Of a DNA stretch of 64,000 nt, positions 1,460 through 15,056 are shown in pieces. This stretch comes from a virus. The position numbers and the translations under genes were made by a program. The number at the start of each line of letters is the position of its first letter. Position 1 is the first letter of the stretch. The notes under the pieces are model-generated. The model ran no database searches. It saw only the letters and a list, made by a program, of their open reading frames with translations, and was not told the origin of the DNA. Location of the stretch: the IMG/VR virus record IMGVR_UViG_3300021963_000029, positions 62,001 to 126,000 of that record. One strand, given 5' to 3'.

Positions 1460-3343
1460 TTAACTTCTTATCTTAGTTCCAGTGGGATAACTTGTTTCTG
1501 GGTCAAATCTGCTTCCTGAAGCATTTTCACCAGATGAGATTATATCTTTGATCATTGTAAACTTACTTTTACCTACATCCAACTTCAAATAAATTGATTT
1601 TTTAGCAATAACATCATTAGAGTATGGAGTTGCCTCTATCTCTACTATATTATTAGGCAAAGAAGTTTCTGATATAGTTATAGTATCTATATTGATTTCA
1701 CCAGTGATATAATCAACTGTGCCAATGTCTTGTTGTTCTGTTTTTTCTGTTTCTCCATCAATAGAAAATAGATACAACCTTCCAGTTTTTAAATCTGCAT
1801 TAGGAGTATCTGATAGATAAACCTCTTTTGTTAGTCCTCTAATTCTAAATCCAGTGCTTCTAATATTATACCCTGAAGGAGAAGCAAAAAATCTATTTTC
1901 ATAGCAAATTGTGTATTGGGTTGGTTCATTAATAATAACACCAACATTTCTTCTAATTAATACTTTTGTTATGTTGGAAGTGATAGAAGTATTTGTAGCA
2001 TCAATTAATCTAACTGACTTACTATACTTAAACCTCCCACCGAACTTGTTTAAATCTGTAGAGTCTGAATAAGTCTGCAGAGATTTAACTACTTGTGATT
2101 TTAGATCACTTACTGCACCAATAAAGTTTGAATTGTAGTAGATAGAAGATACTAGTTCTACATACAAAACATTAATGTCTACAAAGTTTGGTTGAATTCC
2201 TGCTATACTGTATTTTTTGAGAGAAGCAAGAATAAACTCTTTAGTTTGCTCTGACAAATAATCAGAATTTTTTGGTTTTGCTGCTATGAATACCTTACCA
2301 AACTGTGGTGGAGATAACTCTTCACCACCATATGCAGTTACTGACTCAATGTTTGGATAAATTGATGGTAATAATGCTTCATAATCTGCTGCTGTAACTG
2401 CTCTGTACTGGGTTGAGTACATTCTTGGAGCATAATACCTAATAGACTCTATTGATTGAATATCATCACCATTATTTGCTGCTTCTGTGGTAATAACAAC
2501 CCCAACACTAGATCCTAGATTGGACCCAGTATCAGATAAAACTGTACCAGAAAATACAAAATCAGAGGCACCATTGCCCTGCTTACCATTAGTTGTGATA
2601 TATGATACTAAAACTTGATTATTGTTGACTAATTTTTTACCAAAGATTCCATCTCCAAAGAAAATTTCATATTTCTCATCTGAGATTTCTTGCACTAAAA
2701 AGATTCTTGAGTTTGTATCAATGTTCAAAATATTATCAACAGGAACAAACTCTTGAGTTGTTGTTGACTGTATAGTATCTTTTACATTCACTCTAATTGT
2801 AGAAGTGTCTATAAATGGGTTTGGTAAGATATACTTTTGGTTTGGTTGAGAAGTATCAACTATAAACTCTTTGGTGAGTAGAGTACCCTCATAGATGTTA
2901 ACATCAAGGAATACTGCTTCTCCTTGACTAACACCAACTGTGATGTCTTCTGGGATTGAAAAAATATAACTTGTGTTATCTAAGTTACCAGTGCAAACAA
3001 TTCCTTTCTTTAAGGTTGCTGTTTTTACTGTTGAATTGATTCCAGTGATGTTAAAAGATATTTTTGCTGTTGCTGCTCTTCTTGATAGTGGAACATACCC
3101 TACATTCCTTGCTAAGGATACTACGTTCTCCCTTAAGGTGGCACTATCAATAAATGACTCATTAACCACCATGTTGGTGTTAAATGCAGTCAGGTAGGTA
3201 TTATAAGCAAGTACATCAATTAAGATTGAAAAGTTAGAACCTTCAAAATCAAAGTCAGTGAAGTTAGAGTTTGATCTTAAGTAATCTTTAATAGATGTTC
3301 TAATCTGATCAAAGTCTAGATTAGTGAATTGAGTAAATGCCAT
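1460..3343 (-). CDS. gp6: Baseplate wedge protein gp6 (J-like)
   Basis: A 627-residue protein similar in length to T4 gp6 (660). The N-terminus (TNLDFDQIRTSIKDYLRSN, then LIDVLAYNTYLTAFNTNM and VGYVPLSRRAATAKISF) is the characteristic gp6/baseplate J-like opening. gp6 dimers link adjacent wedges into the inner baseplate ring, and with gp25 and gp53 form the element that drives sheath contraction. It starts on the base that ends gp25 (1-nt overlap at 3343) and is followed directly by the gp7-like gene. The middle region (YYAPRMYSTQYRAVTAADYEALL) is also typical of J-like proteins. Transcription probably comes from the late promoter before gp25. Confidence 0.92.
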   Translation of the reverse strand: MAFTQFTNLDFDQIRTSIKDYLRSNSNFTDFDFEGSNFSILIDVLAYNTYLTAFNTNMVVNESFIDSATLRENVVSLARNVGYVPLSRRAATAKISFNITGINSTVKTATLKKGIVCTGNLDNTSYIFSIPEDITVGVSQGEAVFLDVNIYEGTLLTKEFIVDTSQPNQKYILPNPFIDTSTIRVNVKDTIQSTTTQEFVPVDNILNIDTNSRIFLVQEISDEKYEIFFGDGIFGKKLVNNNQVLVSYITTNGKQGNGASDFVFSGTVLSDTGSNLGSSVGVVITTEAANNGDDIQSIESIRYYAPRMYSTQYRAVTAADYEALLPSIYPNIESVTAYGGEELSPPQFGKVFIAAKPKNSDYLSEQTKEFILASLKKYSIAGIQPNFVDINVLYVELVSSIYYNSNFIGAVSDLKSQVVKSLQTYSDSTDLNKFGGRFKYSKSVRLIDATNTSITSNITKVLIRRNVGVIINEPTQYTICYENRFFASPSGYNIRSTGFRIRGLTKEVYLSDTPNADLKTGRLYLFSIDGETEKTEQQDIGTVDYITGEINIDTITISETSLPNNIVEIEATPYSNDVIAKKSIYLKLDVGKSKFTMIKDIISSGENASGSRFDPETSYPTGTKIRS

Positions 3344-3747
3344 TAGTATCTGGTTGGTTGTAATATGAATGTAACTAATTGTTGGGGAGCACTCAATCCA
3401 ACAATATCATAAATGATACTTACATCCATGGCATTATCATCTGGGAAAAGAGAAACTTCTACGTTTCTCAATCTAACTCTAGGTTCAAAGTTATTGATAA
3501 CTGTTTTGATTTCATCCTTTATGGGTTCTTCAACGCCAATGTCAGCAAGTTCAAAGAAATAATTTTCAACCTTAGAACCTAAAAGAGGATTAAAGAATCT
3601 CTCACCAACTCTAGTTCTCACTAGATTGATAACTGCCCTTTTAATAGCATCCTCGTTTGTTAATGAAATAATATCATTAGTAACTGGATTTCTCTTAAAA
3701 GACAGACTGATATCTTTAAATCCTCTTGAAACAGATTCTAAAGGCAC
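3343..3747 (-). CDS. gp25: Baseplate wedge protein gp25 (lysozyme-like fold)
   Basis: The 134 residues match the T4 gp25 size (132). Key segments are an N-terminal strand (RGFKDISLSFKRNPVTNDI), the helix with NEDAIKRAVINLVRTRVGERFFNPLLGS, and a C-terminal half with FEPRVRLRNVEV. The RxGERxFxPxxGS signature is that of the GPW/gp25 family. gp25 joins wedge to sheath initiator and is essential for baseplate assembly; despite its fold it is not a muralytic enzyme in T4. A late promoter ATAAATA lies 23-29 bp upstream of its ATG and overlaps the stop codon of the preceding gene. Confidence 0.93.
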   Translation of the reverse strand: MPLESVSRGFKDISLSFKRNPVTNDIISLTNEDAIKRAVINLVRTRVGERFFNPLLGSKVENYFFELADIGVEEPIKDEIKTVINNFEPRVRLRNVEVSLFPDDNAMDVSIIYDIVGLSAPQQLVTFILQPTRY

Positions 3748-5906: not shown

Positions 5907-6056
5907 CTAGAACTTCTTTTTATAATTATACTCTAAGGTAATCTTTCTACTCTCATTGTACTTATCTGCAACATAAGAGAATGTACAGTCTGCCCCAAAA
6001 TGATTGGCAAGCACCTGAATAATTTCTTGGAATAATTTCTGATTGTCTTCTGTCAT
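5907..6056 (-). CDS. Small hypothetical protein
   Basis: 49 aa: an amphipathic helix (DNQKLFQEIIQVLANHF) followed by GADCTFSYVADKY and a basic YNYKKKF tail. It starts with ATGA overlap on the stop of the upstream gene and ends about 20 nt before the next. No family recognised. Confidence 0.65.
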   Translation of the reverse strand: MTEDNQKLFQEIIQVLANHFGADCTFSYVADKYNESRKITLEYNYKKKF

Positions 6057-6250
6057 TTAAACCCCTTTGTTTTTTTCTGAGGTGGATCAATTACTTCAAT
6101 GTGACTCAACATGTTCCCTGGTGTGCCCCACCAAGTCCTCTGAGCATCTTCATAGTTATCAAAGACCACTGACTCACCATTGAATGCTACTACCTTGTAG
6201 AAGTGCCTCAAATAGGGGTCAGAGGATGTTTGAGTAAATGTACTAGTCAT
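6053..6250 (-). CDS. Conserved small hypothetical protein
   Basis: 65 aa starting MTSTFTQTSSDPYLRHFYKV, with FDNYEDAQRTWWGTPG and a basic KKTKGFK tail. The pattern SDPYLRHFYKVVAFNG...NYEEAQxxWW is familiar from small cyanophage proteins. I chose the ATG at 6250 because it overlaps the upstream stop codon (ATGACTAG), the coupling seen throughout; an ATG at 6259 is in frame too. Confidence 0.7.
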   Translation of the reverse strand: MTSTFTQTSSDPYLRHFYKVVAFNGESVVFDNYEDAQRTWWGTPGNMLSHIEVIDPPQKKTKGFK

Positions 6251-6401
6251 CACAATCATTCACAATTAAAAACTCCTTTACCTGAAAATCAGTAGAAAAC
6301 CCTGCACTAATCATCTGGGATATACCAGTGAGTGTCTTCTCACATTCCGAGAGACTACCTTCACAAAACACCCTGTCTCTTGCAATCAACTTGTAGACCA
6401 T
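6243..6401 (-). CDS. Small hypothetical protein, first gene left of the putative origin
   Basis: 52 aa starting MVYKLIARDRVFCEGSLSEC, with SGFSTDFQVKEFLI and an acidic VNDCDD end. AGGG lies 7 nt before the ATG. It heads the 6401-5377 gene string. The leftward promoter at 6680-6708 would give it a leader of about 270 nt. No known domain. Confidence 0.65.
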   Translation of the reverse strand: MVYKLIARDRVFCEGSLSECEKTLTGISQMISAGFSTDFQVKEFLIVNDCDD

Positions 6402-6633
6402 TTTTACCCTGGGAAAATTTTTTTCTTATAATGGGACCCAAGTATATTTAATCCCTCCCACAGGCAAATTCCAATATAACTGAATTCATCCAAGGGGCTG
6501 GTCTCTGTCCCATACACATTCCTATAGAGCAACCTTACAGGACTTTTTTGACCCCAGAAAATTTTTTTAATCACTTGAAATAAAGCTCTTGTTTTCAAAG
6601 TTTTGTAGGTTAGGGTAGTTTGGATTTTTCGCA

Positions 6634-6651
6634 TTACCCCACAAGGGGTAA
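6634..6651. repeat. Perfect hairpin in the gene-free region
   Basis: TTACCCC-ACAA-GGGGTAA: 7-bp stem, 4-nt loop. No T-run follows on either strand, so it is not an obvious terminator. It lies about 20-40 nt into the transcript expected from the leftward promoter at 6680-6708. Confidence 0.6.
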
Positions 6652-6679
6652 CATAATAACACAAAACACCTGCTAATTC

Positions 6680-6708
6680 ACTATAACATACCCACTGCAT
6701 TTTGTCAA
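6680..6708 (-). promoter_or_regulatory. Consensus sigma70 promoter, leftward
   Basis: TTGACA, 17 bp, TATAGT on the minus strand, with predicted +1 near 6673. It would drive the 6401-5377 gene string after a leader of about 270 nt, or make origin RNA. Confidence 0.6.
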
Positions 6709-6757
6709 CCCCTGTATTCACTGAGACCCACACATCTCATCACTGTTTTACATTGTG

Positions 6758-6798
6758 TTTTCCACATGTTTTCCACAATTATTCACAAGTTTTCCACA
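6758..6798 (+). repeat. Four helically phased DnaA-box-like sites
   Basis: TTTTCCACA at 6758, 6769 and 6790 and TTATTCACA at 6779, all in the same orientation. Start-to-start spacing is 11, 10 and 11 bp, one helical turn each, so proteins would stack on one face of the DNA. Confidence 0.7.
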
Positions 6799-6867
6799 GG
6801 TATCTTATACTGAGTTTCACTGAGATTGTGTCACTCACTGGGATCTCACTGATTTACACTTAAGACC

Positions 6868-6876
6868 TGTGGAAAA
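6868..6876 (-). repeat. DnaA-box-like site, inverted
   Basis: TGTGGAAAA, the complement of TTTTCCACA, inside a CCTGTGGAAAACT context repeated at 7047. Confidence 0.6.
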
Positions 6877-6926
6877 CTATCACTGTCAAGGGGCAATGTG
6901 CCAGTTCTGAGTGTTCCTGGGGGGTG

Positions 6927-6955
6927 TTGACATTTCTGAGGGTTTGTGATACAAT
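6927..6955 (+). promoter_or_regulatory. Consensus sigma70 promoter, rightward, inside the box cluster
   Basis: TTGACA, 17 bp, TACAAT on the plus strand with an extended -10 (TGA before TACAAT); predicted +1 about 6962. No plus-strand gene follows: the first ATG gives only about 12 codons. The RNA would run through the second box cluster toward the AT-rich segment, as a T4-type origin primer transcript would. Confidence 0.55.
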
Positions 6956-7014
6956 GGGGGCCAAGATCACTAGACTCAGAGACATTTACTGACAATACAC
7001 TGAATTATACATAG

Positions 7015-7055
7015 TTTTCCACATTTTCCACAAAATAACACAAACCTGTGGAAAA
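7015..7055. repeat. Three DnaA-box-like sites
   Basis: TTTTCCACA at 7015 and 7024 (abutting, same orientation) and its complement at 7047-7055. Together with 6758-6876 this gives eight sites in 300 bp. Confidence 0.65.
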
Positions 7056-7121
7056 CTCAACTACATTTATTTTGACATTTATTTGATTTCCCTAACATTG
7101 TGCGGAATGAACATTTAGGGG

Positions 7122-7325
7122 TTAAATGTCTTTCAGCACATGCCTATAATCAATGGATTTGATACACCAACCTGATGCACATGTGATCTCTTCAACTAGA
7201 TCTTCATCATCATCTGCTTCATAGATTTCCCCAACATAGAGAGAGGTTAGATGATCTTTATCAAATGGAGTTAGTGTATCATCCCCATCAAAATCAAACT
7301 CAATGTATGTAATTTGGAATTGCAT
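7122..7325 (-). CDS. Conserved small acidic protein
   Basis: 67 aa, strongly acidic: FDFDGDDTLTPFDKDH, GEIYEADDDEDLVEEIT, then ASGWCIKSIDYRHVL. The YIEFDF...WEADDEEDLIEEIT-like arrangement recurs in T4-like cyanophages. Acidic DNA-mimic behaviour is possible but not shown. It ends the 8114-7122 gene string. A 7-bp hairpin (7111-7129) overlaps its stop codon. Confidence 0.7.
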   Translation of the reverse strand: MQFQITYIEFDFDGDDTLTPFDKDHLTSLYVGEIYEADDDEDLVEEITCASGWCIKSIDYRHVLKDI

Positions 7326-7326
7326 T

Positions 7327-7518
7327 TTATGCTTCTTGGATTAACTCAGGATAGTATTCTTCAATCTCACTTAGCAGTTCTTCATCACTATACATAGAGA
7401 GATTTTCTTCAAGTTGATCACCTACCAATCTCATCAGATCTTTGGTGCTCATGCTATCAATAATGCGATCAACATAAGATGAAACAAGTTGATCACGATT
7501 GGGGATTGGAATTGTCAT
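7327..7518 (-). CDS. Conserved small acidic helical protein
   Basis: 63 aa: NRDQLVSSYVDRIIDSM followed by SDEELLSEIEEYYPELIQEA. The REQLxxSYVDxIxDxM...LSDxELLxE pattern is conserved among cyanophage small proteins. It starts with an ATGA overlap on the upstream gene. Function unknown. Confidence 0.72.
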   Translation of the reverse strand: MTIPIPNRDQLVSSYVDRIIDSMSTKDLMRLVGDQLEENLSMYSDEELLSEIEEYYPELIQEA

Positions 7519-7840: not shown

Positions 7841-8114
7841 TGTGGAAGTCAATCATCATCTCATTGATCTCATCATGGTTGATCAATTCATGATTCCAGG
7901 CAACACCATCATTGGTGGTCATTCTATCACAATTCTCCATGCACCTGATGAACTTATCATAGGGCATTTCATCATCATTTCTAAACTCTACACATGCAAC
8001 AGCAGTGTTATACAGAAACTGGTTGTTTTGCATCCACAGAGCAACATTCCAGGTTTCATAATTTGCCCAACCATTGTAAGTTTCTTGGGGCATTGCAGTG
8101 GTTTGATTTTTCAT
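7827..8114 (-). CDS. Small protein with GWxNYETWxVxLW motif
   Basis: 95 aa. NGWANYETWNVALWMQNN (about residues 14-31) is a motif found in many small proteins of phages and plasmids, often beside antirestriction genes; no biochemical role is established to my knowledge. The start is set by the promoter module: ATG at 8114 is the right half of CATACATGTATG and is 6 bp after TATCAT, so the mRNA should be leaderless. It precedes a string of five overlapping small genes. Confidence 0.78.
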   Translation of the reverse strand: MKNQTTAMPQETYNGWANYETWNVALWMQNNQFLYNTAVACVEFRNDDEMPYDKFIRCMENCDRMTTNDGVAWNHELINHDEINEMMIDFHSEEN

Positions 8115-8149
8115 ACATGTATGATAGCACAAAAAACCAGGAAAGTCAA
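8112..8149 (-). promoter_or_regulatory. Leaderless early promoter with CATACATGTATG palindrome
   Basis: Minus strand: TTGACT (8149-8144), 17-bp spacer, extended -10 TGC-TATCAT (8126-8121), 6 bp, then ATG of the 95-aa gene. The palindrome (8112-8123) overlaps the -10 and the start codon. Confidence 0.75.
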
Positions 8150-8157
8150 TAGGGGTT

Positions 8158-8179
8158 GTGCCAGTTCTTCAACTGGCAC
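8158..8179. repeat. Inter-gene hairpin, GTGCCAGTT type
   Basis: GTGCCAGTT-CTTC-AACTGGCAC: perfect 9-bp stem, 4-nt loop, between the stop codon at 8197 and the promoter at 8149. No T-run follows. It is the best-paired copy of a repeat found between about fourteen early gene pairs. Confidence 0.75.
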
Positions 8180-8196
8180 ATGATGTCATTTAGTGG

Positions 8197-8376
8197 TCAA
8201 AAATCAAAGTCATCAGCATAATCATTGTCCATGATGTAGGCATCATCAGGCACAGGAACTTGATCCTCTTGAGTATCTACAACTGCATCCAATACAGTGA
8301 GAAGATCCTCACCAGTTTGTGCTTTGGAGAGCATAACCATGGCAGCAGTTTTAGGCAGGTTCAGAGTAGCAGTCAT
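8197..8376 (-). CDS. Small acidic protein, paralogue of the 50-aa gene at 13572
   Basis: 59 aa: MTATLNLPKTAAMVMLSKAQ, then TGEDLLTVLDAVVD and an acidic Asp/Pro-rich tail. The MVMLSKAQTGEDLLTVLDAV core parallels MVAALRRGQNGNEILAILDAI of the gene at 13572-13724: a short helix, Gly turn and second helix. Likely a conserved small regulator or structural peptide; role unknown. Confidence 0.7.
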   Translation of the reverse strand: MTATLNLPKTAAMVMLSKAQTGEDLLTVLDAVVDTQEDQVPVPDDAYIMDNDYADDFDF

Positions 8377-8419
8377 GAGTGAAATTAAAGGGTTGAAAGT
8401 GTAAAGAAAGAAGGGTTAA

Positions 8420-8860
8420 TCAAAAGTTTTTGGTGAACACAAAACCATCATTGAAGGCAAAATCATAATACAAATTGCGTTCCCATGTGGCAGTCCAATC
8501 AATCACAACAGGCACATCATCCAGGTTGGTGATGTAATGCTCACTGACATATTGCTCAGCAAATTGTTCCTCACTGTCATACTCTCCAAAGTATGCATCA
8601 CAGAAGTTTGCAATGGCATCAATACCAAACTCATCTACAAAAGCATCCACTGCTTCATAAGAATACTCCTCACCATACTTCACATAATCTTCATAATAGG
8701 CAAGGAAGTTATCATTACCATAGACCTGAATGAACTCAATCATGTCACCTTCATAGAAGTTTTCTTCCTTGAGTTCATTGATCTTTTCTTGCACATCATC
8801 AGAGATGGTGATGATAATGTTGGTCATTTCAGTGGTTTGGTTGGTGTTTTGATTTTTCAT
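8420..8860 (-). CDS. ArdA-like antirestriction protein
   Basis: 146 aa with many Asp/Glu and few basic residues, as in DNA-mimic proteins. The central part (DAFVDEFGIDAIANFCDAYFGEYDSEEQFAEQYVSEH is the region, about residues 75-115) followed by IDWTATWERNLYYDF and a terminal VFTKNF matches the ArdA arrangement (xAYxGEYDSxExFAxE...D...DL...GHVFRN). ArdA binds type I restriction-modification enzymes by imitating bent B-DNA. The protein is shorter than plasmid ArdA (about 165) and would lack part of the N-terminal domain. Start set by the leaderless promoter at 8858-8895. Early expression fits a role protecting incoming DNA. Confidence 0.72.
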   Translation of the reverse strand: MKNQNTNQTTEMTNIIITISDDVQEKINELKEENFYEGDMIEFIQVYGNDNFLAYYEDYVKYGEEYSYEAVDAFVDEFGIDAIANFCDAYFGEYDSEEQFAEQYVSEHYITNLDDVPVVIDWTATWERNLYYDFAFNDGFVFTKNF

Positions 8861-8895
8861 ACATGTATGATAGCACAGATTCCTTGAAAAATCAA
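8858..8895 (-). promoter_or_regulatory. Leaderless early promoter with palindrome (ArdA-like gene)
   Basis: TTGATT (8895-8890), 17 bp, TGC-TATCAT (8872-8867), 6 bp, ATG at 8860; CATACATGTATG at 8858-8869. Confidence 0.75.
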
Positions 8896-8907
8896 GGGGT
8901 CTTGTGC

Positions 8908-8929
8908 CACTTTGTCAACTGGCACAGTC
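8908..8929. repeat. Inter-gene hairpin containing a stop codon
   Basis: Minus: GTGCCAGTT-GACA-AAGTGGCAC, 9-bp stem with one G.G mismatch. The TGA stop of the 68-aa gene is in the loop, so the last codons of that gene form the stem. Confidence 0.65.
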
Positions 8930-9121
8930 AACCTCAGTGATATATTGCTTCAGTGCTTCAATGTCATTTAGAACCATTTTTAGAGCAGATCTAGCATAAC
9001 CAGCAGCATAAGGATAACTCTTCTCATTGTCACTTACTGCCATCTCTGATTCAGAGATTGCCTTCTCACATGTGATAATGATTTTATTCAATTTAGACTC
9101 TACAATTTCATTCATTAACAT
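8915..9121 (-). CDS. Small helical hypothetical protein
   Basis: 68 aa, mostly alpha-helical (NEIVESKLNKIIITCEKAIS; AAGYARSALKMVLNDIEAL). ATG at 9121 overlaps the upstream gene, and a second ATG at 9115 is possible. The stop codon lies inside the inter-gene hairpin at 8908-8929. No family recognised. Confidence 0.65.
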   Translation of the reverse strand: MLMNEIVESKLNKIIITCEKAISESEMAVSDNEKSYPYAAGYARSALKMVLNDIEALKQYITEVDCAS

Positions 9122-9381
9122 GCACCATAGAAAGGATTACCAAGTTGAGGCAGGTTAGTGTTATCTTTGACAAACACATAACCATATGCCAACCTCTCAC
9201 GAATAGCAAGTGCTTTCTCTACTCTGTTGAGGTACTTTTTAGACATAGTTTCAATGCCTTTCCATTCTAATACCTGCAAACACCATTCTTTTGATACATC
9301 ACCAAATGGAGTTTTTACAGGGTAAAATGACACAATCATTGTGCCATCTTTGGATTGAATTGTGGGGAAGTCAGTTGTCAT
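9115..9381 (-). CDS. Hypothetical protein
   Basis: 88 aa: TTDFPTIQSKDGTMIVSFYP, VSKEWCLQVLEWKGIE, then KALAIRERLAYGYVFVKD. Mixed alpha/beta with no recognised motif. ATG at 9381 was chosen over TTG at 9387; it lies just beyond the upstream TGA. Middle gene of the unit promoted at 9587-9625. Confidence 0.65.
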   Translation of the reverse strand: MTTDFPTIQSKDGTMIVSFYPVKTPFGDVSKEWCLQVLEWKGIETMSKKYLNRVEKALAIRERLAYGYVFVKDNTNLPQLGNPFYGAC

Positions 9382-9383
9382 AA

Positions 9384-9590
9384 TCAAGCAGCAATAGCAG
9401 AGTACATGTTGATGGATTTGATTTCCATCAAAACATAATCATAATTCCAATTATGTTGCAAATCTTTTTTATATTGTTCAGCAGCAGATTTGCAGTCAAA
9501 CAGTTGCAGAGATTTGAAATCTTCACCCTCATAATCATGTCCACCAATGACAGAATACACTTGGGGTTGGTTGTTCATTTGTTTTTCCAT
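9384..9590 (-). CDS. Conserved small hypothetical protein
   Basis: 68 aa: YSVIGGHDYEGEDFKSLQLF then DCKSAAEQYKKDLQ. The VYSVIGGxDYEGEDFxSLQLFDCKSAAExY core recurs in cyanophages. The ATG is the right half of the palindrome and 6 bp after the -10, so it should be made from a leaderless mRNA. Confidence 0.74.
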   Translation of the reverse strand: MEKQMNNQPQVYSVIGGHDYEGEDFKSLQLFDCKSAAEQYKKDLQHNWNYDYVLMEIKSINMYSAIAA

Positions 9591-9625
9591 ACATGTATGG
9601 TAGCACAGAATCCCTAGAAAGTCAA
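9587..9625 (-). promoter_or_regulatory. Leaderless early promoter with extended palindrome
   Basis: TTGACT (9625-9620), 17 bp, TGC-TACCAT (9602-9597), 6 bp, ATG. The palindrome is the 14-bp CCATACATGTATGG: the C in the -10 is matched by a G after the start ATG, a paired change that preserves symmetry. Confidence 0.75.
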
Positions 9626-9712
9626 TGGAGTCTGTGCCACTTCATCAACTGGCACATCATTATACTTTTCCGCATCAGTTCCGTGATACATGTAGTAAAT
9701 TGTGTTGTTCAT
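9614..9712 (-). CDS. Possible very small ORF (doubtful)
   Basis: 32 codons beginning MNNTIYYMYHGTDAEKYNDV and reading through the inter-gene hairpin and the -35 of the next promoter. Several small genes here do end within this hairpin, so it may be real, but no ribosome binding site or homologue is recognised. Confidence 0.25.
   Translation of the reverse strand: MNNTIYYMYHGTDAEKYNDVPVDEVAQTPLTF
9633..9654. repeat. Inter-gene hairpin, GTGCCA type
   Basis: GTGCCACTT-CATC-AACTGGCAC, 9-bp stem with one mismatch, directly upstream of the -35 at 9625. Confidence 0.65.
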
Positions 9713-9767
9713 GGTTATCATCATCAGCATGATAGTTCTTGATAACATGAAGTGATTGATTAGAGGA

Positions 9768-10238
9768 TCATTGATCACCATAGTCTGCCCAGAAAGCATC
9801 ATTGTGGGAGGGACGAATGCAGTCAACACCATGATCACGAATCACAGCAGCATTGTAAGGAGAATCATCAACCCAGAATTGAATATCCCAGAAACGCTCA
9901 ATGTCCATGAGTTGTTGACCCTTACACTGTGAACCAGTTGCATCATCATCAGTGTTCTTCATGTAGAGTGCATCAAACTCTGGCAAATGTTGTTGCAACC
10001 AGTACCCAGTTCCCTCTGCATAAATGTCAGGACGTGCAGTGGCAATAACTAGATCAAAACCATGAGATTTGCAGTGCTTTGCAACATCAACAACAGCATC
10101 AATAGCAGGGAATTGATCACACTCATCAAAACCAGATTGTGAACCATGATGACACAGAGTTGCATCAAGATCAAAAACAACGCACTTAGGATTGGAGACG
10201 TTGTAGATAACTTTGGAAAAGGATTTGGTTTTTTGCAT
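9768..10238 (-). CDS. HAD-superfamily phosphatase (PseT 3'-phosphatase-like)
   Basis: 156 aa. Motif I is FDLDATL (nucleophile D23, acid/base D25), motif II IATARP (T67), and a late acidic pair in FWVDDSPYN (D124, D125). This is the HAD arrangement and resembles the phosphatase half of T4 polynucleotide kinase more than metabolite phosphatases; the kinase half is absent. Possible substrates are 3'-phosphates of cleaved RNA/DNA or nucleotides. The start is fixed by a perfect TTGACA-17-TATAAT promoter that puts +1 on the A of ATG 10238; the open frame extends 8 codons further upstream but into the promoter. Confidence 0.75.
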   Translation of the reverse strand: MQKTKSFSKVIYNVSNPKCVVFDLDATLCHHGSQSGFDECDQFPAIDAVVDVAKHCKSHGFDLVIATARPDIYAEGTGYWLQQHLPEFDALYMKNTDDDATGSQCKGQQLMDIERFWDIQFWVDDSPYNAAVIRDHGVDCIRPSHNDAFWADYGDQ

Positions 10239-10273
10239 GTGTGTATTATAGGGCATTTTCAAGGATTTGTCAA
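10236..10273 (-). promoter_or_regulatory. Perfect-consensus leaderless promoter (HAD gene)
   Basis: TTGACA (10273-10268), 17 bp, TATAAT (10250-10245), then ACACAC and ATG. Same geometry as the palindrome promoters, but the palindrome is absent (only CAT..ATG ends remain), suggesting an unregulated copy. Confidence 0.8.
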
Positions 10274-10287
10274 GTGTTTTGTGCCAC

Positions 10288-10309
10288 TAATACAAGTGGC
10301 ACATGGTAT
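10288..10309. repeat. Inter-gene hairpin, GTGCCAC type
   Basis: GTGCCAC-8 nt-GTGGCAC, perfect 7-bp stem between the 46-aa gene and the HAD promoter. Confidence 0.65.
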
Positions 10310-10311
10310 CA

Positions 10312-10452
10312 CTAATTGGACTCAAGTTGTTCTAGTTGTGCATTAAGTTGCTGTGCATGAGTTTGTACAATGTTGAGACCAAAATCTAGGATGGTAGCAA
10401 CACCACTAAAACCAACAGTAGCAACAATCAGACCAGCAAAAAAGGTTTTCAT
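10312..10452 (-). CDS. Small membrane protein
   Basis: 46 aa with one predicted membrane segment (FFAGLIVATVGFSGVATIL) then a polar Gln-rich tail. The ATG lies 2 nt after the upstream stop codon. Function unknown; small early membrane peptides are common in this region (10312, 12250, 12390, 14551, 20642, 21202, 22544). Confidence 0.65.
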   Translation of the reverse strand: MKTFFAGLIVATVGFSGVATILDFGLNIVQTHAQQLNAQLEQLESN

Positions 10453-10454
10453 AA

Positions 10455-10616
10455 TTATACAGAAGGGGTGACAGAAATCTCTTTAATGTTTAATCCACAA
10501 AGTTGATTGTAGACACGATTGAGGATCAATTTATCAGCAGTTTTTGCCTTGCTTTTCTCATGCCAGATGGTCACACATCCATCATAAGTTTCAACTCTGA
10601 CTCTGTAGTTTTTCAT
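10455..10616 (-). CDS. Small hypothetical protein
   Basis: 53 aa: NYRVRVETYDGCVTIWHEKS, then a helix KAKTADKLILNRVYNQLCGL. A beta-beta-alpha-beta outline is plausible. It follows the 79-aa gene by 6 nt. No family recognised. Confidence 0.65.
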   Translation of the reverse strand: MKNYRVRVETYDGCVTIWHEKSKAKTADKLILNRVYNQLCGLNIKEISVTPSV

Positions 10617-10622
10617 GATCAA

Positions 10623-10862
10623 TCAGTACAGAAGGGAGAAAGAACCACAGAACTTACGCACCCATTGTAGAGTGTCATAATGACTGCGAGGTTTAGACAT
10701 TACCATGCTCTTGTTAGTAACAGGATTGAGAGCAATAGCAACATATTTGTGGTCACATTCTTGCCATTCAGGAGTGATTTGCTGAATGAACATTTGATTT
10801 ACTTTACCTTCCTTCCAGTTGTTGACATAGTGGAAGACTTGAGTGGTTTCTTGACTTTTCAT
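10623..10862 (-). CDS. Hypothetical protein
   Basis: 79 aa: FHYVNNWKEGKVNQMFIQQI, HKYVAIALNPVTNKSMVMSK, ending WVRKFCGSFSLLY. The start is the ATG of the palindrome promoter at 10860-10897, so a leaderless transcript is expected. Function unknown. Confidence 0.68.
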   Translation of the reverse strand: MKSQETTQVFHYVNNWKEGKVNQMFIQQITPEWQECDHKYVAIALNPVTNKSMVMSKPRSHYDTLQWVRKFCGSFSLLY

Positions 10863-10897
10863 ACATGTATGATAGCATGGATTCCCCCAAAAATCAA
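10860..10897 (-). promoter_or_regulatory. Leaderless early promoter with palindrome
   Basis: TTGATT (10897-10892), 17 bp, TGC-TATCAT (10874-10869), 6 bp, ATG at 10862; CATACATGTATG at 10860-10871. Confidence 0.75.
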
Positions 10898-10906
10898 GGG
10901 GGTGTG

Positions 10907-10928
10907 TGCCACTTCATCAACTGGCACA
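10907..10928. repeat. Inter-gene hairpin, GTGCCA type
   Basis: GTGCCACTT-CATC-AACTGGCAC, identical to the copy at 9633-9654; lies between tRNA-Thr and the next promoter. Confidence 0.65.
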
Positions 10929-10962
10929 TGGTATCATTTATCTGCCACACATTTGTGGTAAA

Positions 10963-11036
10963 AGCTAGTGACAAGACTTGAACTTGCGACCTGAGCTTTA
11001 CAAAAGCCCTGCTCTATCCAACTGAGCTACACTAGC
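10963..11036 (-). tRNA. tRNA-Thr (UGU)
   Basis: A 74-nt cloverleaf with acceptor GCTAGTG/CACTAGC, D arm GCTC..GAGC, anticodon loop TTTGTAA on the stem GGGCT/AGCTC, and T loop TTCAAGT. CCA is not encoded. It reads ACA codons, common in this AT-rich genome. Confidence 0.93.
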
Positions 11037-11042
11037 AAAAAG

Positions 11043-11357
11043 TCATTCCTTGGATATATTTAGAAGCATCCAAATACCAAGGGCAAAGACTAAAAATAGA
11101 AGCACGTACTTCCATGCTGCAACTAGAATAAATGCAAGCATTGCAAGTAATACAAACCCACCATCAAATCCTGATGATGAACCAGAATCAGATTCATTAT
11201 CATCAGAACTGTATGAGTTGTCTACAACTGCCATGATACATTTACCACCAGTCATAGACTCTGCAAATGCAACTGCATCACTGTGAGTGTATGCTTCTAC
11301 TCTCACAGTTTGTAACCAATTAGATGGTGTTCTTACAGTACACTTCCACTCATTCAT
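11043..11357 (-). CDS. Membrane protein with two C-terminal transmembrane segments
   Basis: 104 aa. The N-terminal domain (WKCTVRTPSNWLQTVRVEAY, SDAVAFAESMTGGKCIMAVV) is about 50 aa, followed by a Ser/Gly/Asp linker and two hydrophobic stretches (FVLLAMLAFILVAAWKYVLL and FLVFALGIWMLL). It overlaps the exonuclease stop codon (ATGAATGA). Such linker-plus-hairpin proteins are seen in cyanophages; role unknown. Confidence 0.7.
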   Translation of the reverse strand: MNEWKCTVRTPSNWLQTVRVEAYTHSDAVAFAESMTGGKCIMAVVDNSYSSDDNESDSGSSSGFDGGFVLLAMLAFILVAAWKYVLLFLVFALGIWMLLNISKE

Positions 11358-12022
11358 TTGTTATTGTATTCCTGAATGTATTGCTTGAGAGTATCAACAT
11401 AATCAGCAGGATTCTTGACAAAAACTTGTGTTTCACCTGAATGACAAGAAATAAGAGTCACAATTTGTTCCACTTTATTGCCAGTCATTTCCTCATACAT
11501 CATAGCATAACCAGTCTCCTGCACAAAATAGTTTTGGATCTGATTCTCATGCTTTGGTTTAGAAGAACTCTTGAAGTCAATCACAGACAATTTACCATTG
11601 TATTCTGCAATGCAATCTACACGACCTGCAATACCAAGTTGTTCAGAATACAGAGCAGATTCCTGATAGTGAATGTTATCCACATCATCAAGGAGTGCCT
11701 TGAATTGATTAAACAATTTGAGAGCAACTTCATACTTCTCAGCATCATAATCTGCATCCACATTGTTGACATAATCTTCCACAAGTTTGTGGAACTTAGT
11801 ACCATTGTTTGATGCAAATTGACTGATTTGATTTGCAGTTTCTTCACCTACACGTTCTCTCCACTCTGCAATTACTTTCCTATTCTGATAGGAAGTAACT
11901 GTGGTGACAGAAGGCAACAGTTTGCCATTGACAACATAGCGACGTGAACCATCCACAGTTTCAGTGGGGATGTCTGCAAGAGCAGGAAGATTGAGGTGAT
12001 TGAACTTAGTTTTGGTTTGCAT
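11354..12022 (-). CDS. PD-(D/E)XK-family exonuclease
   Basis: 222 aa. Catalytic-type residues are H78 and E82 in FHKLVEDY, D136 in AGRVDCIAEYNGK, and D149-x-K151 in VIDFKSS, the order of the RecB/Cas4/MGME1-like nuclease family (G-x-x-D ... D-x-K). The N-terminal half (LPSVTTVTSYQN) resembles phage members of this family. Likely degrades or processes single-stranded DNA ends during phage replication, recombination or host DNA breakdown. ATG at 12022 was chosen over a TTG at 12043 that overlaps the previous stop codon. Confidence 0.8.
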   Translation of the reverse strand: MQTKTKFNHLNLPALADIPTETVDGSRRYVVNGKLLPSVTTVTSYQNRKVIAEWRERVGEETANQISQFASNNGTKFHKLVEDYVNNVDADYDAEKYEVALKLFNQFKALLDDVDNIHYQESALYSEQLGIAGRVDCIAEYNGKLSVIDFKSSSKPKHENQIQNYFVQETGYAMMYEEMTGNKVEQIVTLISCHSGETQVFVKNPADYVDTLKQYIQEYNNK

Positions 12023-12039
12023 AATAATGTTGTTGGTGA

Positions 12040-12189
12040 TCAAAGAAACTCAGCAATGTAATAGTCAACAGTAATTTCTAATTCTGCTGCTTTTGCTTCA
12101 AGTTCCATAGTATATTCTTCTGCCATTTGTTCATCAGCATGATCACAGAAGAGGTCAAGAGTGGATTGGTGCATAAACTTATCTTTCAT
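12040..12189 (-). CDS. Small acidic helical protein
   Basis: 49 aa: STLDLFCDHADEQMAEEYTM then EAKAAELEITVDYYIAEFL. The start (MKDKFMHQ) is set by the palindrome promoter. First gene of the unit that carries the exonuclease. Function unknown. Confidence 0.68.
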   Translation of the reverse strand: MKDKFMHQSTLDLFCDHADEQMAEEYTMELEAKAAELEITVDYYIAEFL

Positions 12190-12224
12190 ACATGTATGAT
12201 ACCACAGATTTACTAAAAAGTCAA
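12187..12224 (-). promoter_or_regulatory. Leaderless early promoter with palindrome (exonuclease unit)
   Basis: TTGACT (12224-12219), 17 bp, TGG-TATCAT (12201-12196), 6 bp, ATG at 12189; CATACATGTATG at 12187-12198. Confidence 0.75.
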
Positions 12225-12230
12225 GCATTA

Positions 12231-12253
12231 GTGGACAGTCCTACAAGTGTCAC
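12231..12253. repeat. Inter-gene hairpin, GACA type
   Basis: GTGGACAGT..AGTGTCAC, imperfect stem. It overlaps the stop codon of the 46-aa gene. Belongs to the second sequence subtype (GACAGT/ACTGTC). Confidence 0.55.
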
Positions 12254-12390
12254 ATGATGTAAGATTTGCGATCAAATCTGTGCTTATTGTACTCAATTTG
12301 TTGTAAATCTTGCTTCATCTTAATGTCTATAACTGCATGGAGAGTCATAGCAAAACTAAAGCAAATAATACAGAAAAGAATAGGTTTCAT
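12250..12390 (-). CDS. Small membrane or secreted protein
   Basis: 46 aa: hydrophobic N-terminus PILFCIICFSFAMTLHAVI then a polar, basic tail. TAATG coupling to the upstream 29-aa gene. Unknown function. Confidence 0.62.
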   Translation of the reverse strand: MKPILFCIICFSFAMTLHAVIDIKMKQDLQQIEYNKHRFDRKSYIM

Positions 12391-12479
12391 TAATCTTGAG
12401 GATTGTTATGATGAAGAGCATAGTTAAACACTAATGCAATAAATGCAAGGGCAAACCATGCACCAAAGAATGTGATCAT
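12390..12479 (-). CDS. Very small membrane peptide
   Basis: 29 aa, nearly all one membrane segment (ITFFGAWFALAFIALVFNYAL). ATGA overlap with the 139-aa gene and TAATG coupling to the next support translation despite the length. Confidence 0.58.
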   Translation of the reverse strand: MITFFGAWFALAFIALVFNYALHHNNPQD

Positions 12480-12895
12480 TTGTAGAGATAACCTCCTGCC
12501 CAATCTGCACGTTTGTACATCTCAACACGAGATTGTTCATCAAGCAAGTTATATCTTACACCATTCTTTGCAGGTGATTGCCAAGTGGCAGATTTGTACA
12601 CATCACCAGTATTCAGATCAACAAAAGCATGTGCACTTTTCTGACTACCATAACTGGTAACATGGATAATCTTGGCATACTTTTTACCTTTAGTGTAAAT
12701 GTAATTATCCACACCATCACCTTCACAGAGTTTATCAATGCACTGCTGGTGATAGTCTACATTCTCACCTTTAGCAATGTATTGTTGGTGACGTTGAATA
12801 GCAGAAGATTGATAGTTGGTGCGAAGAACCTGGCACATTTCTTCAATCTTATCAATAACTTTTTCAGTGGTCAAGTTGGTGTTTTGATTTTTCAT
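12476..12895 (-). CDS. Conserved hypothetical protein (HAFVDLNTGDVYK motif)
   Basis: 139 aa. The N-terminal 50 residues are helical (VIDKIEEMCQVLRTNYQSS). The C-terminal half KKYAKIIHV, SAHAFVDLNTGDVYKSATWQ, NLLDEQSR and ADWAGGYLY forms a compact beta-rich domain that I recognise as conserved in cyanophages and other large phages, without a known activity. Start set by the palindrome promoter; six residues (MKNQNT) are shared with the ArdA-like gene start, part of the repeated cassette. Confidence 0.75.
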   Translation of the reverse strand: MKNQNTNLTTEKVIDKIEEMCQVLRTNYQSSAIQRHQQYIAKGENVDYHQQCIDKLCEGDGVDNYIYTKGKKYAKIIHVTSYGSQKSAHAFVDLNTGDVYKSATWQSPAKNGVRYNLLDEQSRVEMYKRADWAGGYLYK

Positions 12896-12930
12896 ACATG
12901 TATGATAGCACAAGAATCAGCAAAAGTCAA
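12893..12930 (-). promoter_or_regulatory. Leaderless early promoter with palindrome
   Basis: TTGACT (12930-12925), 17 bp, TGC-TATCAT (12907-12902), 6 bp, ATG at 12895; CATACATGTATG at 12893-12904. Confidence 0.75.
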
Positions 12931-12936
12931 TAGGTC

Positions 12937-12959
12937 GTGGACAGTTCCACAACTGTCAC
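12937..12959. repeat. Inter-gene hairpin, GACAGTT type
   Basis: GACAGTT-CCAC-AACTGTC, perfect 7-bp stem flanked by GTG/CAC, overlapping the stop codon of the 53-aa gene. Confidence 0.65.
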
Positions 12960-13117
12960 ATCTTTACATTTTCTCTGCAATAAACAAACCTATTCCATTC
13001 TTCATTTGTGAAATTGTCACTTGCATAAGGTATGCCAACAACATAGGCACAAAACTTGTTGATTTCCTCAGACTTTTGAGAGGATGAGATAACAACAGAT
13101 GCAATTAGTTCAAGCAT
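12956..13117 (-). CDS. Small hypothetical protein
   Basis: 53 aa: MLELIASVVISSSQKSEEIN, then VGIPYASDNFTNEEWNRFVY. TAATG coupling with the upstream gene; stop codon inside the hairpin. No family recognised. Confidence 0.62.
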   Translation of the reverse strand: MLELIASVVISSSQKSEEINKFCAYVVGIPYASDNFTNEEWNRFVYCRENVKM

Positions 13118-13329
13118 TAGAATCTCTTGGGAATGTCACAATATGCTAGAGGATTATAGTCACCTGCATCACTAAATGATGCTGCTGTGTCATGAATCAC
13201 TTTTGCTCTATACAATAGATCCTCAAGATCCAGCATCAGTTGATTCAAATCATCATCAGTTTTACCCAGCAGAGCATCACTAATTCTCTCAAATGCTGCT
13301 GCTGTTTGTAGCGTGTGTTGGTGTATCAT
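13117..13329 (-). CDS. Conserved small helical protein
   Basis: 70 aa: MIHQHTLQTAAAFERISDAL, then DDDLNQLMLDLEDLLYRAKV. I chose ATG 13329 rather than the longer open frame because it overlaps the stop codon of a separate basic ORF (ATGA). The HTLxTAAAFERxSDALLGKTD start is familiar from cyanophage proteins of unknown role. Confidence 0.68.
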   Translation of the reverse strand: MIHQHTLQTAAAFERISDALLGKTDDDLNQLMLDLEDLLYRAKVIHDTAASFSDAGDYNPLAYCDIPKRF

Positions 13330-13451
13330 ACTACTTTGTATTTTGTCTTTATTGCTTTTAATACTTGTTTGCGTGCCTTTAGTTTGCCTTTGCAAGTGCC
13401 TTTGGTATTCTTTTGTTTTCCTGAGTTGTGCATCCAATTAGGTGTGTTCAT
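13326..13451 (-). CDS. Small very basic protein
   Basis: 41 aa: MNTPNWMHNSGKQKNTKGTC followed by a Lys/Arg-rich helix ending KTKYKVV. About 15 Lys/Arg residues. ATGA coupling to the next gene. Likely binds nucleic acid; unknown. Confidence 0.6.
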   Translation of the reverse strand: MNTPNWMHNSGKQKNTKGTCKGKLKARKQVLKAIKTKYKVV

Positions 13452-13467
13452 TGTTTTACAGTTAGAA

Positions 13468-13540
13468 CAGGCACAGAGGGACTCGAACCCCCACTCAACT
13501 GCTTAGAAGGCAGTGGCATTATCCATTATGCTATGTGCCC
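13468..13540 (-). tRNA. tRNA-Arg (UCU), copy 1
   Basis: A 73-nt cloverleaf with acceptor GGGCACA/TGTGCCT, D stem GCAT/ATGC, anticodon loop CTTCTAA on ACTGC/GCAGT, and T loop TTCGAGT. Reads AGA. A second tRNA-Arg with the same anticodon loop is at 24611. Confidence 0.92.
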
Positions 13541-13546
13541 AAATAA

Positions 13547-13569
13547 GGGGCAACAATGCCCCTATTTAT
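13547..13569 (-). promoter_or_regulatory. GGGGCA hairpin and ATAAATA just upstream of tRNA-Arg
   Basis: Minus strand: ATAAATA (13569-13563) then GGGGCA-TTGT-TGCCCC (13562-13547), 6 nt before the tRNA 5' end. The hairpin may end the upstream mRNA or guide tRNA processing; ATAAATA could be a late promoter for the tRNA. The same order occurs before tRNA-Ser. Confidence 0.5.
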
Positions 13570-13571
13570 TA

Positions 13572-13724
13572 TCAGAACTCTACAGGTTCAAGAGTAGGTT
13601 GAGCAACTGCACTTTGAGTGCTGGGAGCATCATTATCACCAGAAGTGATAGCATCAAGAATGGCAAGGATTTCATTACCATTTTGACCACGACGCAGAGC
13701 AGCAACCATCAGATCAGTAGACAT
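13572..13724 (-). CDS. Small protein, paralogue of the gene at 8197
   Basis: 50 aa: MSTDLMVAALRRGQNGNEIL, AILDAITSGD, then an Ala/Pro/Gln-rich tail. Shares the helix-Gly-helix layout with the 59-aa product at 8197-8376. Precedes tRNA-Arg; its stop codon is 3 nt before the ATAAATA element. Function unknown. Confidence 0.68.
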   Translation of the reverse strand: MSTDLMVAALRRGQNGNEILAILDAITSGDNDAPSTQSAVAQPTLEPVEF

Positions 13725-13785
13725 AATGAAGAAGGTGGTAAATGAACAAGAGTGTGTAACTTTAGGGCAAACACATTCCCATTAG

Positions 13786-13929
13786 TTAAGGAGTGAGAAT
13801 AATTTCTACATCTTTGATAACATCTTCATCAGGTAGATTGTAGAGAAATTGATAATAGTCCTCATAATCAACACCTAGGTAACTAGCAAAATCTTCTAAA
13901 TCATCATGCAATTTACAAGTGTCAATCAT
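13786..13929 (-). CDS. Small acidic protein, paralogue of the gene at 24787
   Basis: 47 aa: DDLEDFASYLGVDYEDYYQF, with an acidic helical C-terminus. The YLGVDYEDY core is repeated in the 46-aa product at 24787-24927 (AEYLGVDYEDYLEFL), so the two are duplicates 11 kb apart. TATGAT at 13955-13960 is a possible -10. Role unknown. Confidence 0.65.
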   Translation of the reverse strand: MIDTCKLHDDLEDFASYLGVDYEDYYQFLYNLPDEDVIKDVEIILTP

Positions 13930-13970
13930 GATCCCTCAACTGTTGATGTAATACATCATAGCACACAGAA

Positions 13971-14096
13971 TCAGATTTGGGGAGAACTGTGTGCCACTTT
14001 GATTGGTGTCACAGTCTGTGCTTTAAGAACCACAAATGGGTCTCCAATTAGTAGAATAGAGCACAGAAAAATTCCTTTCCAGAGTTTATTAGACAT
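13971..14096 (-). CDS. Small membrane or secreted peptide
   Basis: 41 aa with hydrophobic LWKGIFLCSILLIGDPFVVL after a short basic start, like a signal peptide. Its last residues (VTPIKVAHSSPQI) read through the inter-gene inverted repeat. The ATG overlaps the end of the 61-aa gene. Function unknown. Confidence 0.55.
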   Translation of the reverse strand: MSNKLWKGIFLCSILLIGDPFVVLKAQTVTPIKVAHSSPQI

Positions 14097-14274
14097 CATA
14101 CAACTTGTTGATACAAATCTGTTCTTTATACCAGGCATTGTCAGCATCACTATTCCATGAAATGCCTAGCATAAAATTATAGTGGTCTGCCCACAGATTG
14201 CAACTTGCCTCAAACCATTCAGCACTAGGTTTGCAGACAGAATAATCTTGAAAGTCCATTTTGATTTTTGTCAT
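14089..14274 (-). CDS. Small hypothetical protein
   Basis: 61 aa: MTKIKMDFQDYSVCKPSAEW, then NLWADHYNFMLGISWNSDAD and YKEQICINKLYDV. The ATG is exactly 6 bp after a TATACT box (14286-14281), the leaderless geometry. Function unknown. Confidence 0.65.
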   Translation of the reverse strand: MTKIKMDFQDYSVCKPSAEWFEASCNLWADHYNFMLGISWNSDADNAWYKEQICINKLYDV

Positions 14275-14286
14275 GAAGACAGTATA
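14272..14286 (-). promoter_or_regulatory. Leaderless-geometry -10 just after a terminator
   Basis: TGC-TATACT, 6 bp, ATG at 14274. The -35 position is occupied by the terminator stem and looks poor, so the extended -10 may carry the promoter. Confidence 0.5.
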
Positions 14287-14292
14287 GCATGA

Positions 14293-14321
14293 AAAAGGGC
14301 ACTGTGCTCATTTACAGTGCC
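14293..14321 (-). terminator. Rho-independent terminator
   Basis: Minus strand: GGCACTGT-8 nt-ACAGTGCC followed by CTTTTT; perfect 8-bp stem. It ends the transcript of the 14342-14676 genes just before the promoter of the 61-aa gene and shows that at least one inter-gene inverted repeat is a true terminator. Confidence 0.8.
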
Positions 14322-14341
14322 AGTTCTACAAGTGTCACATG

Positions 14342-14554
14342 TTATACATCAATCTCTGCTAGTTTCTTTTGGTTGCGCAGTTCAGTAATAATAGTTTGTA
14401 GTTCAATCATATCTTGCCTACAATCTTCTAGATCTTCACAAAGAATGTCATACTGATACTCTGACTTACACCTACGAATTTGCTTAGTCAGTTTATCATA
14501 CTTTTTCCTTACATCTTTGAGATCTTTCTCATACTCTTGGATAGTCTTATTCAT
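14342..14554 (-). CDS. Coiled-coil protein
   Basis: 70 aa with heptad-like KTIQEYEKDLKDVRKKYDKL, KSEYQYDILCEDLEDC and MIELQTIITELRNQKKL. Highly charged; probably an oligomer. ATGA overlap with the upstream membrane peptide. No catalytic motif. Confidence 0.68.
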   Translation of the reverse strand: MNKTIQEYEKDLKDVRKKYDKLTKQIRRCKSEYQYDILCEDLEDCRQDMIELQTIITELRNQKKLAEIDV

Positions 14555-14676
14555 TTGAGCAAACTAGAATTGAAGTAACGACGAAAAGCAGTGATAATGA
14601 TAATAAGAGTGCTAGACACACCAACCAAACCAAGGAAGGTAACAGCATCACCTGAAAATGTGTAACTTTGAGGCAT
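14551..14676 (-). CDS. Small membrane protein
   Basis: 41 aa with one membrane segment (AVTFLGLVGVSSTLIIIITA) then FRRYFNSSLLK, so the basic tail should stay in the cytoplasm. Downstream of the class B promoter at 14687-14726. Function unknown. Confidence 0.65.
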   Translation of the reverse strand: MPQSYTFSGDAVTFLGLVGVSSTLIIIITAFRRYFNSSLLK

Positions 14677-14686
14677 TTGTTTTTTG

Positions 14687-14726
14687 ATTACTCTGTAATG
14701 ATAGCAGATCTAGAGGTAAAAGTCAA
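14687..14726 (-). promoter_or_regulatory. Early promoter with ATTAC-N3-GTAAT inverted repeat (class B)
   Basis: TTGACT (14726-14721), 17 bp, TGC-TATCAT (14703-14698). ATTACAGAGTAAT (14699-14687) covers the -10/+1 region; the ATG is at 14676, so a short leader is made. Confidence 0.7.
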
Positions 14727-14735
14727 TGGATAGTG

Positions 14736-14758
14736 GACAGTTCTAGAAGTGTCCTATC
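14736..14758. repeat. Inter-gene inverted repeat, GACAGTT type
   Basis: GTGGACAGTTCTAGAAGTGTCC, an imperfect copy overlapping the end of the RlpA-like gene. Confidence 0.5.
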
Positions 14759-15056
14759 CTATAACTCTGTAGCACACAGTTGCATTACCTTTCTTCACTG
14801 ACTCAATATGTGCAAATGCAGCATAACTGAGGTCCAGATCAGCATGAGAGTATGGACCCCTATCATTGACACGAACCACAACTTGTTTTCCATTATCTTG
14901 ATTGGTTACTCTAATTTTAGTTCCCATCTTTAAGTATGGATGAGCAGCAGTCCACCTATAGGGATTCATTGTTTCACCATTTGCAGTCTTTTGATATGCA
15001 AATCCATCACCAACACCATAAAATGTGGCAATGCCACACATTAGAGCAGCAATCAT
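14754..15056 (-). CDS. RlpA-like double-psi beta-barrel protein
   Basis: 100 aa. ATFYGVGDGFAYQKTANGE, TAAHPYLKMGTKIRVTNQ, GKQVVVRVNDRGPY and DLDLSYAAFAHI follow the RlpA barrel core in order, including the RVNDRGPY signature and the Asp of the catalytic-type triad. RlpA proteins bind or cleave denuded peptidoglycan (septal lytic transglycosylases) in bacteria. The short hydrophobic start (MIAALMCGIA) could export it. A lysis or cell-wall role in the host is an inference; its place among early genes, not with holin/lysin, is unusual. Confidence 0.78.
   Translation of the reverse strand: MIAALMCGIATFYGVGDGFAYQKTANGETMNPYRWTAAHPYLKMGTKIRVTNQDNGKQVVVRVNDRGPYSHADLDLSYAAFAHIESVKKGNATVCYRVIG

Follow-up and report, generated by a model that had tools for sequence, protein, structure and literature searches.

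Clustered host-type DnaA boxes upstream of gp25 in T4-like cyanophages: a candidate replication origin

Described DnaA-box loci and T4 origins

The origins of P1 (oriR) and pSC101 have DnaA boxes of the host beside AT-rich DNA, together with iterons and an initiator protein of their own. The E. coli loci datA and DARS, which have IHF/Fis sites and are concerned with nucleotide exchange, regulate DnaA from chromosomal positions. The element described here lies in a window of 64 kb, the whole stretch of DNA that was analysed, which corresponds to bases 62,001-126,000 of a 180,814-bp IMG/VR virus record. It resembles P1 oriR and pSC101 in belonging to a mobile replicon and in having DnaA boxes beside AT-rich DNA, but the element showed no iteron array of another kind; it resembles datA and DARS as a non-coding cluster of DnaA boxes away from oriC that could alter the availability of DnaA, but those loci, unlike the phage element, are chromosomal.

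The origins of T4, oriF (ori uvsY) and oriG, are of the R-loop type, and the review of T4 replication that describes these starts never mentions DnaA (PMC3016281). Annotation places T4 oriF next to gene 25, at the 3' side of that gene, and the uvsY transcript serves as its primer. The cyanophage element has in common with the T4 origins a T4-like phage genome, a promoter whose transcript would run into the element, and a location near gene 25, but it is 5' of gp25; positional equivalence with oriF was dropped because the two are on opposite sides of gene 25/gp25. The contrast with T4 that a preliminary description of this DNA had drawn is upheld by the lack of any such box cluster near T4 gene 25.

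S. elongatus, Anabaena and most cyanobacteria have the 9-mer TTTTCCACA as their DnaA box; domain IV of Cyanothece DnaA binds it and protects it in a footprint, with better binding to a perfect pair of boxes separated by 2 nt than to an imperfect pair set wider apart (PMC4674748). The oriC regions by dnaN in Cyanothece, Anabaena and S. elongatus (PMC4674748) share with the phage element the 9-mer itself, the presence of several boxes within a short non-coding region, the direct and inverted order, and pairs spaced by 2 nt, the spacing of the perfect Cyanothece pair being that of phage boxes 6758 and 6769. The phage element differs in that neither dnaN nor dnaA is next to it, its neighbours being phage genes, in having no DnaA-trios in the orientation of the basal unwinding system (BUS), in having a convergent pair with a 14-15-bp gap, and in having more perfect boxes than picocyanobacterial oriCs. 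No match to a phage-encoded DnaA was found in the record. T4-like cyanophages abound in sunlit water, and no open-access report was found that places or explains the start of their replication: the open-access full text searched (subscription papers and preprints were outside its scope) held no report of DnaA boxes or of a mapped origin in these phages, and the closest-looking matches were unrelated to either.

The box cluster and its non-coding core

The element and its bordering genes have the following features.

1460-3343: gp6, phrog_219, left of the element
3343..3747, minus strand: gp25 baseplate wedge gene, phrog_261 (E 2.3e-47), the syntenic landmark
6404..6634, minus strand: probable small gene, 76 aa, ATG at 6634, stop-free in about 10 relatives, with P_L just upstream
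6680..6708, minus strand: P_L, sigma70-like TTGACA-17-TATAGT with extended -10 (TG), 11 of 12 consensus positions
6758..6766, plus strand: DnaA box 1, TTTTCCACA
6769..6777, plus strand: DnaA box 2, TTTTCCACA, 2 nt past box 1
6779..6787, plus strand: degenerate box, TTATTCACA
6790..6798, plus strand: DnaA box 3, TTTTCCACA
6868..6876, minus strand: DnaA box 4, TTTTCCACA, inverted
6927..6955, plus strand: P_R, sigma70-like TTGACA-17-TACAAT with extended -10 (TG), 11 of 12 consensus positions
6956..6972, plus strand: presumed P_R transcript start, GGGGGCCAAGATCAC, conserved
7015..7023, plus strand: DnaA box 5, TTTTCCACA, variable in position among relatives
7024..7032, plus strand: DnaA box 6, TTTTCCACA, left half of the convergent pair, 14-bp gap
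7047..7055, minus strand: DnaA box 7, TTTTCCACA, inverted, right half of the convergent pair
7056..7096, no strand: AT-rich flank, candidate unwinding stretch, 75% AT
7122..7325, minus strand: gene of a conserved 67-aa protein, phrog_2460, function unassigned, bordering the element

The box cluster in this cyanophage is real. The eight 9-mers claimed in the preliminary description, seven copies of TTTTCCACA and one of TTATTCACA, were all recovered in 6758-7055, and the claimed spacings of 11, 10 and 11 agree with the start-to-start distances of the first four boxes. All seven copies of TTTTCCACA in the window fall within these 298 bp, and the record as a whole has eight, the sole copy outside the cluster being at record position 33,495. 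Dinucleotide shuffling of the whole window gave a mean of 1.74 copies and never reached seven in 100 shuffles, and the count in the 720-bp region (6402-7121) never exceeded two in 20,000 Markov resamples. The enrichment is limited to the exact 9-mer and its clustering and does not extend to the degenerate consensus TTWTNCACA, which is not enriched window-wide (14 occurrences against 12.4 expected). From left to right the element consists of P_L, a left array (6758-6798) whose three perfect boxes and one degenerate box all face the same way, the inverted box at 6868, P_R, GGCCAAGATCAC, the boxes at 7015, 7024 and 7047, and the AT-rich flank.

The 720-bp stretch had first been called gene-free, which holds for approximately 6635-7121 but fails for 6404-6634, where a gene with a putative 76-aa product is probably located: the predicted proteins have 58-87% amino acid identity across about 10 relatives, and in several pairs the differences favour codon position 3. 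Because this ORF is conserved and has a near-consensus promoter upstream, the non-coding core is placed from about 6635 to 7121, about 487 bp, which is shorter than the stretch first described. A perfect inverted repeat (TTACCCC-TTGT-GGGGTAA, 6618-6651) is situated right where the 76-aa ORF presumably starts, and is possibly a site of translational control. No intrinsic terminator was found in 6300-7200, and no known RNA family in 6000-7400. The neighbourhood is T4-like, with gp25 and gp6 to the left, and the element is upstream of gp25 at a distance of about 3.0-3.3 kb. A homologue of the 67-aa protein also borders the box cluster of phage DSL-LC03, on the opposite side.

Recurrence among phages and comparison with host oriC

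The layout of the element is repeated in about 14 IMG/VR relatives. Among 11 distinct sequences, the boxes at 6769, 6790, 6868 and 7047 have an identity of 1.0 against a background of 0.64; pairwise identity is 0.82 for the box at 6758 and 0.53 for the degenerate box, which is not kept. The 21-22-bp distance between the neighbours of the degenerate box is kept, though the box itself is lost in many relatives.

At least two exact boxes are upstream of gp25 in eight of the 20 isolates checked (DSL-LC03, S-SZBM1, S-RIM4, S-WAM1, S-PM2, Syn9, Syn19 and S-RIM8), a proportion that is not a frequency, as the isolates were chosen partly by similarity; isolate clusters were recognized by comparing genome-wide counts of the 9-mer with gp25 positions. 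The element is at 52.57 kb in Syn9, 41.7 kb in S-RIM8 and 19.2 kb in S-PM2. A box pair is present at locus L030 too. One box is found beside the conserved promoter in S-PRM1 (in which gp25 was not found with the query used), S-8S56 and S-SCSM1, and the promoter is kept with no exact box nearby in S-CAM9, S-SCSM2R and Sf-FS3. The S-RIM8 form of the element matched 210 cyanophage records by blastn, compared with at least 434 cyanophage records that have a gp6 match. In six isolates (P-SSM2, P-HM1, S-RSM4, P-SSM4, S-SSM7 and S-SRM01), as in T4, no significant cluster is seen upstream of gp25 even when one mismatch is allowed; thus, the cluster is not needed by all T4-like cyanophages. The search of the same locus in relatives that the preliminary description had proposed found the boxes not absent but present, among close relatives as well as in many distant T4-like cyanophages. 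Clusters in the same place in so many related viruses suggest that host DnaA is borrowed or soaked up, unlike in T4.

In the viral collection, scans for two close direct boxes and for the convergent arrangement AGTTTTCCACA-N6-36-TGTGGAAAACT gave at least 120 matches each. A T4-like cyanophage protein is encoded in 180 of the 247 metagenomic viral loci fetched, a minority of which came from two short motif scans and the rest from box pairs. All 100 distinct convergent pairs (from 116 loci with gp25 or gp6) are 1.6-9.6 kb upstream of gp25. After deduplication, the spacing of box pairs in viral contigs is periodic at 10.2-10.8 bp, with preferred convergent gaps of 4, 14-15, 25-26, 36 and 47 and preferred direct distances of 11-12, 21-22, 32, 42 and 52; the 14-bp gap of the pair 7024/7047 is the commonest. 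Rayleigh R values are 0.77 for a period of 10.7 bp and 0.65 for one of 10.2 bp, or 0.63 and 0.53 without the largest peak; they are descriptive only because the contigs are related and not independent. With flanks oriented by gp25, 38 pairs have the higher AT content on one particular side and 11 on the other; an earlier profile oriented by AT content itself was discarded as evidence. In many T4-like cyanophages (S-RIM8 L274:5705-5830, Syn9 L273:5566-5700, S-RIM4 L142:6018-6130) a motif, GTAGTCTTAGCACGTTTCC, is found about 70-80 bp past the box pair; it is diverged in S-PM2 (L275:5232-5350) and has no obvious copy in the lineage of the window.

When bacterial genomes were scanned for three close boxes, many cyanobacteria were recovered along with other bacteria, and the boxes adjoin dnaN in five of the six cyanobacteria checked. 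In genomes of picocyanobacterial size, taken as picocyanobacteria by inference from size and from dnaN as first gene, the region upstream of dnaN has boxes that are spaced or degenerate, with CTACTACTACTA, which is the DnaA-trio signature of the BUS, after them (PMC8287927). A strict trio scan found CTACTACTA runs in five of seven host oriC stretches, and none in BUS orientation 0-16 bp past a box in the window, seven relatives or seven isolate elements. Nine genomes of picocyanobacterial size have no convergent close pair, and a direct one is present in one of the nine, away from dnaN. Mimicry of oriC in the strict sense was rejected, as the phage element has no DnaA-trios in BUS orientation. 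Because it has many perfect boxes but no trios, the phage element is outside the BUS-type oriC family, though it could work as a DnaA assembly site. There is good support for regarding the phage 9-mers as host-type DnaA boxes: they match the bound cyanobacterial box exactly, are conserved box by box and are helically phased.

Seven genomes of picocyanobacterial size have in common one convergent TTTTCCACA pair, 44-45 bp apart and away from dnaN (loci L474, L476, L477 and L480 in host-size genomes G220, G286, G246 and G007), and five of such genomes have common boxes about 270-290 bp apart. These shared boxes are possible chromosomal DnaA-regulating sites.

The origin reading and its alternatives

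The preferred reading, given slightly better than an even chance, is that 6635-7121 is a host-DnaA assembly site and most likely the start of early, DnaA-dependent phage replication. It is supported by the perfect boxes, their conservation one by one, their helical phasing, their single place in the genome and the recurrence of the same site upstream of gp25; site identity, clustering, conservation, phasing, synteny and the linked promoters are established at the sequence level. The origin claimed in the preliminary description is plausible to that extent, but a GC-skew switch and DnaA-trios are absent and several T4-like cyanophages lack the cluster. The skew is monotonic over the whole record with no turning point, which is a weak test given the one-sided gene orientation. 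The divergent promoters around the left array, which also fit a regulatory role, count against an origin.

Host DnaA would bind the left array and the convergent pair 7024-7055, and DnaA together with transcription from P_R entering the pair would open the neighbouring AT-rich DNA, whereupon the phage helicase and its loader would take over (a gp59/gp41 handover), and later rounds of replication would be driven by recombination in the fashion of T4. Only the opening step would be borrowed from the host, because the record has a DnaB-like helicase/ATPase (record 5.4-6.0 kb) and a gp59-like loader (record 133 kb). Perfect boxes without trios would imply that DnaA is captured by affinity and that the layout of host oriC is not copied. 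The AT content of 75% (7057-7096) is matched by about 7% of the 40-bp stretches of the window and is unremarkable alone; relatives also have an AT-rich flank next to the pair, and that of the window is mirrored relative to gp25 in comparison with other lineages.

The wider proposal, for which the chances are considered even, is that many T4-like cyanophages start replication at a conserved site upstream of gp25, where host DnaA would be captured by perfect, helically phased, convergent, trio-less boxes, an origin type unlike both the R-loop origins of T4 and host oriC, with more perfect boxes than the host. If host DnaA is used, phage replication would be tied to the level of the host initiator, to light and to the cell cycle, and the same act could shut off host replication. 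Because the site recurs upstream of gp25, the question is directly testable in laboratory phages (Syn9, S-RIM8 and S-PM2).

Both near-consensus promoters are conserved and directed away from the left array: P_L leftward, to the 76-aa ORF and gp25, and P_R, as predicted from its consensus, rightward into the stretch with the convergent pair (7015-7096). The P_L hexamers TGTCAA and ACTATA are retained in the alignment of relatives; P_R with its presumed start has a mean identity of 0.91 against the background of 0.64 in 11 relatives, and its core is retained in distant cyanophages including S-PRM1 and S-SCSM2R. These promoters would suit DnaA acting as a transcription factor, with boxes between and beside strong early promoters setting early phage transcription, particularly as P_R and its start are conserved as well as the boxes and survive before a protein gene in phages that have lost most boxes. 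This explanation is nevertheless unlikely: no box overlaps a -35 or -10 element, the nearest being about 50 bp off; about 230 bp separate the promoter from the pair in phages of the S-RIM8 type; and regulation alone does not require a recurring site upstream of gp25.

Titration would make the cluster a decoy for host DnaA, which would halt initiation in the host and free nucleotides. The boxes of the host would be outnumbered by a few phage copies, because the phage genome brings eight perfect boxes versus about 15-25 in each of eight host-size genomes (a count like that of the reversed control pattern), and the phage boxes are perfect versus the degenerate boxes in picocyanobacterial oriC. 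However, a decoy requires no fixed map position, no convergent gap of 14-15 bp and no AT-rich flank, and many relatives have just two or three boxes, all of which makes titration rather improbable. The origin, promoter-control and titration readings are not mutually exclusive.

Recognition of the 9-mer by another protein that shares the DnaA box sequence, such as a phage regulator or a recombination or packaging factor, would explain why convergent pairs form perfect inverted repeats, as the sites of dimeric regulators do, and why picocyanobacterial oriCs have few perfect TTTTCCACA, but is very doubtful given that the 9-mer is exactly identical to the host DnaA box, that direct and inverted pairs at many helical spacings resemble DnaA arrays and not dimeric operators, and that the scan for three close boxes in bacteria led to cyanobacteria and to dnaN.

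Several further observations concern P_R and the region to its right. The predicted folding of the P_R transcript is only slightly better than that of shuffled sequences (z -1.7). An inverted GTGAT...ATCAC over the P_R -10 and start (window 6956-6972; S-PRM1 L001:3440) is kept in distant phages and looks like a putative operator. A promoter-like cassette precedes small genes in 8085-15411, where a 47-66-bp unit with TTCATACATGTATGATAGCACA is present in six to seven copies and a 27-bp near-palindrome, TGTGCCACTT...AACTGGCACA, in seven; since a half-palindrome, TGTGCCAGTTCT, precedes P_R at about 6900, P_R and the cassette may be members of one early-promoter family. The window has ten tRNA genes (10963-17837, 24610 and 55364), eight of them amid the region of small genes right of the element. 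GC-rich islands with 9/18-bp repeats are located at 33161-34010 and 41493-44216, the latter coding for a 907-aa collagen-like (GPQGxQG) protein that is probably a tail fibre.
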